DNA of 64,000 nucleotides from Neorhizobium galegae (lineage in GTDB: Bacteria; Pseudomonadota; Alphaproteobacteria; Rhizobiales; Rhizobiaceae). Location of the stretch: the NCBI RefSeq assembly GCF_017877055.1, contig NZ_JAGIPG010000002.1, positions 434,001 through 498,000 on the forward strand, in the 5' to 3' direction. The notes beneath the pieces were generated by a model. The model saw only the letters and a program-made list of their open reading frames with translations, searched no databases and was not told the DNA's origin. The position numbers and the translations under genes were made by a program. Positions 18,669-21,222 of this stretch are shown piece after piece (the stretch's first letter is position 1; the number at the start of each line of letters is the position of its first letter).

Positions 18669-20225
18669 TCAGTATGCCGCGACCCCGGCGATCGCACGCT
18701 TTTCGCGGCGGCGCTGAACGGAGGAGGGGATGTTCATCGCCTCGCGGTACTTAGCGACGGTCCGGCGCGCAAGTTCGACCCCGCCGCGTTTCAGGCTGAT
18801 CACGATATCGTCGTCCGAAAGCACCGCATCCGGCGTCTCCTGGGCGATGAGCAGGCGAATCCGGTGGCGCACGGCCTCGGCCGAATGGCTGTCGCCGCCT
18901 TCTTCCGCCGAGCCGATCGACACCGTGAAGAAATATTTGAGTTCGAACAGGCCGCGCGGTGTCAGCATGTATTTGTTGGAGGTGACGCGGCTGACCGTGG
19001 ATTCATGCATCTTGATCGCTTCGGCAACGGTCTTGAGATTGAGCGGCCGCAGGTGGTCGACGCCGTGCATCAGGAACGCATCCTGCTGGCGGACGATTTC
19101 GGTCGCCACCTTCATGATCGTCTTGGCCCGCTGATCGAGGCTGCGCGTCAGCCAGTTGGCGTTCTGCATGCAATCGGAGAGGAAATTATGGTCGTCGCCG
19201 TTTTTCGGGCAGTTCTTCGACACTGTCTGGAAATAGCTATGGTTCACCAGAACGCGCGGCAGGGTGTCCGGATTGAGTTCCACCATCCAGCCGCCGTCGG
19301 GTGCTGCGCGCACGACGATATCCGGCGAAATCGTCTCTGACATGCCGCGCTCGAAACCCGCGCCGGGCTTGGGGTTGAGGCCGCGAATTTCCGCGAGCAT
19401 GTCGATCAGGTCTTCGTCGTCGACCCCGCAAATCTTTCGAAGCGAGGCGAAGTCGCGTTTGCCGAGGAGATCCAGATGTCTGATCAGTGCATCCATGGCC
19501 GGATCGAGCCGGTCCTTTTCCCGAAGCTGGATTGCCAGGCATTCGCCAAGCGACCGCGCGAAGACGCCCGGCGGATCAAGCGTCTGCAGCGAATGCAGGA
19601 TGGCTTCCACATCCCCGGCGCTTCTGCCGAGGCGAGCAGCGATCTCTTCGATGTCGCCCAGCATGTAACCGGCCTCGTCCAGCTGATCGACGAGATGCTG
19701 AGCAATCAGGCGGCTGGCCGCATCGACGATCAGGAAGGGGATCTGCTGGTTCAGGTGATCACGCAGCGTTACCTGGCCGGCGACGAAGTCATCCAGATCG
19801 TAGTCTTCGCCGGTGTCGCCGCCCGGCATGGACTTCCATTGGCTGAGCAGCTCAGGCGCATCGGCGCGCCGCACCGGGCCGTCGTCCGGGAAGACATTTT
19901 CGAAGCCCGTATCGAGCCCTTCGCCCAGCCTCTCGGCGCTGATGGAAGAGGAGCCCTCATACCAGTCGCTATCGACTTCGGCGGCTGTCGAACTCTCGTG
20001 GCCCTCGGCCGGGGCAAAGTCGTCGGCTGTTTCGAAGCCTGTTTCCGCGTCGTTTTCGCTCTCGCTTGACGTAATTTCGAGCAGCGGGTTCTTTTCGACT
20101 TCCTGGGCGATGAACTGGTTGAGTTCGAAATGCGTCATCTGCAGCAGCTGGATGGATTGCATCAGCTGCGGTGTCATCACCAGCGATTGGGTTTGGCGTA
20201 GGAAAAGATTAGCGGATAAACCCAT
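18669..20225 (-). CDS. rpoN: RNA polymerase sigma54 factor
   Basis: A 518-residue protein. The ATG at 20225 begins MGLSANLFLRQTQSLVMTPQ, the Gln/Leu-rich region I that meets enhancer-binding proteins; a TTG 24 bases upstream is possible. An acidic region II follows (about 50-120), then the core-binding part with DPPGVFARSLGECLA. The C-terminus carries the helix-turn-helix and the RpoN box ARRTVAKYRE (about 486-495). It directs transcription of nitrogen-assimilation, fixation, dicarboxylate and other genes. A sigma54 promoter-like sequence facing the other way lies 98 bases before the start. Confidence 0.97.
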   Translation of the reverse strand: MGLSANLFLRQTQSLVMTPQLMQSIQLLQMTHFELNQFIAQEVEKNPLLEITSSESENDAETGFETADDFAPAEGHESSTAAEVDSDWYEGSSSISAERLGEGLDTGFENVFPDDGPVRRADAPELLSQWKSMPGGDTGEDYDLDDFVAGQVTLRDHLNQQIPFLIVDAASRLIAQHLVDQLDEAGYMLGDIEEIAARLGRSAGDVEAILHSLQTLDPPGVFARSLGECLAIQLREKDRLDPAMDALIRHLDLLGKRDFASLRKICGVDDEDLIDMLAEIRGLNPKPGAGFERGMSETISPDIVVRAAPDGGWMVELNPDTLPRVLVNHSYFQTVSKNCPKNGDDHNFLSDCMQNANWLTRSLDQRAKTIMKVATEIVRQQDAFLMHGVDHLRPLNLKTVAEAIKMHESTVSRVTSNKYMLTPRGLFELKYFFTVSIGSAEEGGDSHSAEAVRHRIRLLIAQETPDAVLSDDDIVISLKRGGVELARRTVAKYREAMNIPSSVQRRREKRAIAGVAAY

Positions 20226-20320
20226 GGCGGACGCGAAACTCCCCTGCAATCCCCTTGAACCACCCGGTCATGGAGTGGTGGACGCTCGATTGGCCGAGCC
20301 TCCACAAGGCCAAATTTGCA

Positions 20321-20340
20321 TCTGGCACAAGAATTGCTTT
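20321..20340 (+). promoter_or_regulatory. Sigma54 (-24/-12) promoter, oriented away from rpoN
   Basis: TGGCAC (20323-20328), then AAGAA after one base, then TTGC (20334-20337) and a T run, which matches the TGGCACG-N4-TTGC consensus with correct spacing. It lies between rpoN and lptB on the plus strand. Transcription from it would start near 20350 and run antisense into the 3' end of lptB. Binding of sigma54 here could also lower rpoN expression. Confidence 0.6.
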
Positions 20341-20359
20341 TTTGAAAGATTTGGTCAAG

Positions 20360-20402
20360 CGCTGCAGTGCGGGAAAGTAAATTTCTTTGTCGCGCTGCAG
20401 CG
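20360..20402. repeat. Inverted repeat between rpoN and lptB
   Basis: CGCTGCAG (20360-20367) and CTGCAGCG (20395-20402) are perfect 8-base arms around a 27-base loop; GCGCTGCAG also occurs as a direct repeat. It follows the lptB stop on the minus strand and lies within the first bases of any transcript from the sigma54 promoter. Confidence 0.4.
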
Positions 20403-20415
20403 ACTGGACTTACGC

Positions 20416-21222
20416 CTAGAGGCTGAACTTGTCGCCGAGGTAAAGACGGCGAACATCCGGGTTGTTGACGATATCGTCGGCCCGGCCATGCGTCAGCACT
20501 TCGCCCGCATGGATGATGTAGGCCCGGTCGATCAGGCCCAGCGTCTCGCGGACGTTGTGATCCGTTATCAGAACGCCGATCCCGCGCGCCGTCAAGTGGC
20601 GTACGAGGTTCTGGATGTCAGAGACGGAAATGGGATCGACGCCGGCAAAGGGTTCGTCGAGCAGCATGAAGGCCGGATCGGTCGCAAGCGCCCGGGCGAT
20701 TTCGAGGCGCCGGCGTTCGCCGCCGGAAAGTGCGACGGCCGCCGATTTCCGCAACTGGCTGATGTGGAACTCTTCCAGCAGTTCGTCGAGCTTGCTTTCC
20801 CGTTTGTCCCTGTCGGGTTCATGCACTTCCAGCACCGCGCGGATGTTTTCCTCGACGGTCAGGCCGCGGAAGATCGAGGCTTCCTGCGGCAGATAGCCTA
20901 CCCCCAGACGGGCGCGGCGATACATCGGCATATGGGTGACTTCGTTGCCGTTGATCGCGATCATGCCTTCGTCCACAGGCACCAGGCCGGTGATCATGTA
21001 GAAGCAGGTCGTCTTGCCCGCCCCGTTCGGCCCGAGCAGCCCGACGGCCTCGCCACGGCGCACGACCAGCGACACGCCGTTGACGACGCGGCGGGTATCG
21101 TAGGTCTTCGAAAGCCCGTGCGCGACCAGCGTGCCCTCGTAGCGCGCTTTATCGCGTACGACGAAGGGTTCGGGCGCGGACGGCTTCCCTGCCGACAGAC
21201 TGGTGAGGAACGGTATTTTCAC
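20416..21222 (-). CDS. lptB: LPS export ABC transporter ATP-binding protein LptB
   Basis: A 268-residue ABC ATPase with a GTG start (complement of 21220-21222), 12 bases after the lptA stop. Walker A is GPNGAGKTT (64-72), the Q-loop region GYLPQEASIF, the signature LSGGERRR, Walker B FMLLDEPFAGVD and the switch histidine ITDHNVRE. An extra 30 residues at the N-terminus are common in rhizobia. It powers LptFG/LptC extraction of lipopolysaccharide from the inner membrane. It precedes rpoN. Confidence 0.95.
   Translation of the reverse strand: MKIPFLTSLSAGKPSAPEPFVVRDKARYEGTLVAHGLSKTYDTRRVVNGVSLVVRRGEAVGLLGPNGAGKTTCFYMITGLVPVDEGMIAINGNEVTHMPMYRRARLGVGYLPQEASIFRGLTVEENIRAVLEVHEPDRDKRESKLDELLEEFHISQLRKSAAVALSGGERRRLEIARALATDPAFMLLDEPFAGVDPISVSDIQNLVRHLTARGIGVLITDHNVRETLGLIDRAYIIHAGEVLTHGRADDIVNNPDVRRLYLGDKFSL

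Follow-up and report, generated by a model that had tools for sequence, protein, structure and literature searches.

An inverted sigma54 box conserved at two fixed registers in the predicted rpoN promoter of Rhizobiaceae: a candidate site for negative autoregulation

Results

An inverted sigma54 box in the gap between lptB and rpoN

The window, by which we mean the whole 64-kb stretch of Neorhizobium galegae DNA that was analysed, carries rpoN and lptB in the same direction with lptB upstream, and a gap of 190 bases separates the two genes. The RpoN protein encoded here is 97% identical to RpoN of N. galegae HAMBI 1146 and of N. tomejilense, and an lptB-like gene precedes rpoN in 163 of the 165 regions tested. 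The features of the locus are as follows.

18669..20225, minus strand: rpoN (sigma54), NCBIfam TIGR02395, 421 bits against a cut-off of 277; the ATG is 20223-20225
20323..20337, plus strand: inverted sigma54 -24/-12 box TGGCAC-N5-TTGC, TGGCACAAGAATTGC, an exact match in the lptB-rpoN gap
20330..20335, minus strand: predicted rpoN -10 element AATTCT, inside the box and placed from the 17-base spacer
20353..20358, minus strand: predicted rpoN -35 element TTGACC, placed from the conservation of TTGAC, with a putative function
20416..21222, minus strand: lptB (LPS export ATPase), NCBIfam TIGR04406, 380 bits against a cut-off of 240

A preliminary description of this DNA had reported a match to the -24/-12 consensus in this gap on the strand opposite to the genes, which we found exactly as described, and had called it a sigma54 site antisense to lptB; the orientation is correct, but the box lies in the gap and outside lptB.

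The box is close to chance on its motif but not on its conservation

The sequence TGGCACAAGAATTGC is the only match without mismatches to TGGCAC-N5-TTGC within the window, and the GG and GC of the two half-sites are present at the consensus spacing. When up to two mismatches were allowed, 64 matches were found in the window compared to 63.9 expected, so loose matching shows no enrichment and is uninformative. Genome-wide, the exact pattern has 14 matches compared to nine for the reversed control. A 17-position matrix was built from 14 distinct sites tabulated for Mesorhizobium loti in PMC3538637; with it, the box ranked first among the 127,968 window positions, with a score of 13.0 that is under that of the lowest M. 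loti training site (17.6). On motif evidence alone, the box is close to chance and could be chance. Elsewhere in the same genome, one exact match (L012) lies 73 bases upstream of dctA (NF002461, above cut-off), and three others (L001, L006 and L014) precede genes resembling parts of ABC transporters, with scores below the family cut-offs; these four are candidate ordinary sigma54 promoters.

To compare relatives, we searched the 300 bases before the rpoN ATG for GCAA-N5-GNGCCA, the inverted pattern, which reads TGGCNC-N5-TTGC on the opposite strand. This pattern was present in 78 of the 80 named relatives (shuffled-region mean 0.05) and in 101 of the 137 usable regions drawn from the family (shuffled-region mean 0.1); the two sets overlap in part (e.g. 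L041/L098 and L065/L100), and close relatives among the counted genomes are non-independent samples. Of the 151 genomes in the family draw, 140 have rpoN. Three of these were left out, namely G086 for its weak match, L269 because it lies at a contig edge and L290 because its start was not found; L177, a cut region of 139 bases, was kept. Allowing A for one G (the relaxed box) raised the count to 107 of 137 (shuffled mean 0.55), and also permitting T at the last C of TGGCNC raised it to 118 of 137 (shuffled mean 0.8). Half of the 30 family regions that lack the relaxed box (15 of 30) are one mismatch away from it. Among nine-base patterns of the same shape, the inverted box was the top-ranked one in the family draw with 101 regions, and the runner-up with 53 regions is the same box shifted one base out of register. 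The strict pattern in direct orientation was found in none of the 80 named relatives and in two of the 137 family regions. Judged from these comparisons of sequence, conservation carries the box far beyond chance and settles the point.

An example from another genus is Sinorhizobium meliloti Ak57, in which CTTGACC is followed by GCAATTTTTGGGCCA. Two Rhizobiaceae loci have an exact sense-oriented TGGCNC-N5-TTGC, at about -126 from the rpoN ATG in L110, which also has the inverted box, and at about -93 in L197, which is without it.

The only named relatives without the box are L054 and L059. Each is a second rpoN copy that lacks an upstream lptB, and the strains that carry them have the box at their lptB-linked copies (L037 and L073). 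The box was also absent from all five further second copies. Thus it is missing from seven second rpoN copies, and in all seven of these genomes it is present at the main copy.

The box lies at fixed registers within the predicted rpoN core promoter

On the rpoN strand, the box is preceded by CTTGAC, which is likely the rpoN -35 element. We infer this promoter assignment from the conservation of the element and from the CTTGAC-type -35 of rhizobia, which we take to be the form used here. A simple consensus scan of 20150-20500 did not find a sigma70-type promoter. In S. meliloti the -10 element is described as poorly conserved, and the reported rpoN start had matching reads that were below the cut-off of that paper (PMC3616915).

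We define the register as the distance between the T of TTGAC and the G of GCAA; every one of the 78 box-bearing named relatives has a register of 21 bases. Since those relatives were chosen by the very pattern in which GG and GC are fixed, and the half-site columns and TTGAC of the alignment are set by selection, only the remaining columns of the alignment are informative. In the family draw, where 107 regions carry the relaxed box, the register is 7 bases in 57, 21 in 37, and 20 or 22 in four, and TTGAC was not found near the box in the other nine. The window has the 21-base register, in which the predicted -10 element AATTCT and the -12 half of the box share bases. With the 7-base register, the spacer between the -35 and -10 elements of the predicted promoter is taken up by the box, whose half-sites are retained while the five bases between them drift (0.6-1.3 bits). 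The box therefore overlaps, at a fixed register, a predicted CTTGAC-type promoter of another sigma factor.

The surroundings of the box are much less constrained. In the 127 of 165 tested regions for which distances were taken, the box lies 24 to 313 bases from the lptB stop (sd 60) and 39 to 282 bases from the rpoN ATG; the 60-base flanks on each side are little conserved, save short A- and T-runs that touch the elements. With TTGAC and the box 21 or 7 bases apart, the box falls within the predicted core promoter, at one of two discrete registers. Taken together, these alignments indicate that the position of the box is linked to the rpoN core promoter, and neither to lptB nor to the coding sequence.

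The overlap with the -10 element raises the question of whether what is conserved is only the sigma70 promoter of rpoN, with the sigma54 match as a by-product of the -10 sequence. Such an origin would suit the window's register, where the -12 half coincides with the predicted -10 and the central T-run is conserved too. However, in 57 family regions the box sits in the promoter spacer with both half-sites kept, and a sigma70 promoter requires no fixed spacer sequence. The existence of two registers already contradicts a by-product, which we consider extremely unlikely.

The conserved block resembles a sigma54 site more than a site for another regulator

Among 217 boxes, the -24 half-site was TGGCCC in 161, TGGTCC in 28 and TGGCAC in 21, and TGGCAC was found in the window's clade and in L126, L187 and L287. 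With the M. loti matrix, the commonest box in the window's register scored 9.8, a score reached by 10 window positions, and boxes in this register scored as low as 1.5. In the other register, the median was 15.8 and the commonest box scored 16.8, which is above every position of the window.

The predominance of TGGCCC and TGGTCC over TGGCAC, together with the poor matrix score of the common box in the window's register, is what would be expected if another DNA-binding regulator of rpoN, and not sigma54, bound the conserved block. Against this, the block has the spacing of a sigma54 site, with GG and GC where such a site has them, and TGGCAC itself occurs in the window's clade and in the three further loci named above. 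In addition, the RpoN motif reported for Caulobacter, GGCNC-N4-CTTGC, has a wild card at the same variable position (PMC4287350), so that TGGCCC is permitted. Both RpoN proteins of Bradyrhizobium DOA9 also shift an rpoNc promoter fragment and do not shift the nodA1 control (PMC13207237); as that paper describes the gel shift, it used microgram amounts of sigma factor and no core polymerase, and the site was unmapped. A different regulator at this block is thus very unlikely.

The locus offers little for an antisense transcript toward lptB

A plus-strand transcript from the box would hypothetically start at about 20349, 12 bases past the C of TTGC, and about 67 bases further on would run into lptB at its 3′ end. 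The box could then be a working sigma54 promoter giving an antisense or convergent transcript that acts on lptB or interferes with rpoN transcription. The window box matches the promoter consensus in full and faces lptB, and the almost invariant gene order noted above would bring lptB within reach of such a transcript. However, the box does not keep a fixed distance from the lptB stop, the flanks are too little conserved for a conserved activator site to be seen, and the alignment of relatives revealed no conserved activator element within 60 bases of the box. A search for RNA families returned none at gathering score, only two matches to mir-3064 (27.2 and 18.3 bits, cut-off 76), which arise because of an RNA hairpin at 20352-20409 on the minus strand, directly before the rpoN -35 (z -4.6). 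This adjacent hairpin is itself unconserved, with z below -3 in five of 78 relatives. We therefore regard a working antisense or convergent promoter as unlikely. In particular, a sigma54-dependent antisense RNA against lptB, which the preliminary description had put forward, is unsupported: neither the predicted constraint relative to lptB nor a conserved transcript appeared. In Yersinia, mutated intragenic antisense sigma54 sites commonly lowered the expression of the gene in which they lie (PMC7657599), so the effect of an opposing site is not to be presumed.

Beyond the family, the box follows family lines and sense-oriented boxes occur

The order draw comprised 149 genomes with rpoN, of which 88 were counted and 59 were not fetched, while G000 and G029 were counted under the family draw. 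The relaxed inverted box was found in 32 of the 88 order regions, often as GGACCA (TGGTCC on the other strand), and was missing in 56. Its presence mostly follows family: it is complete in f11 (3/3), f13 (3/3), f16 (4/4), f27 (3/3), f41 (4/4) and f43 (4/4), and partial in f35 (3/4) and f44 (3/4). The class draw comprised 88 genomes with rpoN, from which 29 loci apart from the window's own genome were used; L237 and L245 were unusable, and none of the remaining 27 regions, one of which (L248) belongs to the order, had the inverted box.

Other families of the order have instead a sense-oriented sigma54 box upstream of rpoN, namely f20 (4/4), f22 (3/3) and f50 (3/3). Including one in f6, sense-oriented boxes total 11 of the 88 order regions (shuffled mean 0.4). 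These boxes, such as TGGCATGAACCTTGC, lie within about 100 bases of the rpoN ATG, at L215, L217, L224 and L229 in f20, at L337, L351 and L352 in f22, and at L308, L317 and L321 in f50. Their presence in three families suggests, from sequence, a different wiring of rpoN there. PMC12316311 proposes that sigma54 promoters drive rpoN in several classes, alphaproteobacteria among them, and that proposal fits the families with sense-oriented boxes better than it fits the window.

Discussion

The sigma54 holoenzyme forms a stable inactive closed complex at promoters until an enhancer-binding protein acts. We propose that sigma54-RNA polymerase binds the inverted box, which is reversed within the predicted sigma70 core promoter of rpoN. 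At high levels of sigma54, the holoenzyme would sit on the box as an inactive closed complex, which would cover the rpoN -10 element and the start region in the window's lineage, and the spacer between the -35 and -10 elements in the second lineage. The sigma70 holoenzyme would thereby be excluded, and rpoN transcription would drop until free sigma54 holoenzyme declines. The reversed direction may also matter, since an activated complex would not transcribe rpoN, although this is speculation.

We infer both the occupancy of the box by sigma54 holoenzyme and repression by that occupancy, and a block of the housekeeping promoter of rpoN by sigma54-RNA polymerase, that is, negative autoregulation, is the best reading of the locus and a probable one. 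It is the best supported because of the fixed register of the box in the predicted promoter and because of reports on two relatives: rpoN1 of Rhizobium etli is negatively autoregulated during aerobic growth (PMC3916325), and so is rpoN of R. leguminosarum VF39SM (PMC3538637). Strains in our set that are related to R. etli and R. leguminosarum have the box (L048, L056 and L073). According to an abstract by Michiels, rpoN is reportedly negatively autoregulated independently of the nitrogen source. Negative autoregulation had been one of two consequences suggested in the preliminary description, whose interpretation is thus supported in this half and not in the antisense half.

A broader model is tentative, and we think it somewhat more doubtful than not. 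Across the family, the inverted box may serve as a homeostat that senses free, not total, sigma54 holoenzyme through a parked inverted polymerase, with a 14-base shift of register during evolution and with a sense-oriented box in its place in other families of the order. Occupancy would depend on how much holoenzyme is unengaged, so rpoN would be freed automatically by demand from activated sigma54 promoters or by competition for core polymerase.

Several known systems resemble parts of this proposal. At the 'repressive promoters' described for the RpoN holoenzyme of E. coli, unactivated holoenzyme excludes the RpoD holoenzyme where their promoters overlap, as we propose here; the genes reported there are others, e.g. 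mutM and yobF-cspC, whereas here the target would be rpoN itself, with an inverted box conserved at either of two fixed registers (PMC8743547). The autoregulation of R. etli and R. leguminosarum VF39SM concerns the same gene in related organisms with the same direction of effect, but the accounts given of it in PMC3916325 and PMC3538637 leave the DNA element unnamed. In Bradyrhizobium DOA9, RpoN binds upstream of rpoN as proposed here, and section 2.7 of PMC13207237 gives no site, direction or effect. Antisense-oriented sigma54 sites that oppose genes, for which interference or repression has been proposed, are described in Salmonella and Yersinia, but they are mostly intragenic, and the effect of mutation in Yersinia is opposite to that of simple occlusion (PMC3844500, PMC7657599). 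The rhizobial rpoN2 operons activated by NifA likewise have a sigma54 site upstream of an rpoN gene, but unlike the window box it is sense-oriented and activating and stands at a second copy (PMC3538637). The same paper lists M. loti rpoN1 with the genes that have no NifA/RpoN promoter.

Published work already covers three parts of the proposal, namely repression by the sigma54 holoenzyme, an rpoN gene under negative autoregulation, and RpoN bound to its own promoter region. Our literature search, whose reach did not extend to the earlier R. etli and R. leguminosarum papers, did not find a conserved inverted box inside an rpoN promoter; an earlier mention of the box in the older literature is quite possible, and the conserved architecture of an inverted box in the rpoN promoter may be new.

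A register-conserved box in most of the family would provide a specific mechanism for the reported autoregulation, in which sigma54 polymerase represses the gene of its own sigma factor, and the differences between lineages in the register and direction of the box would offer natural comparisons.
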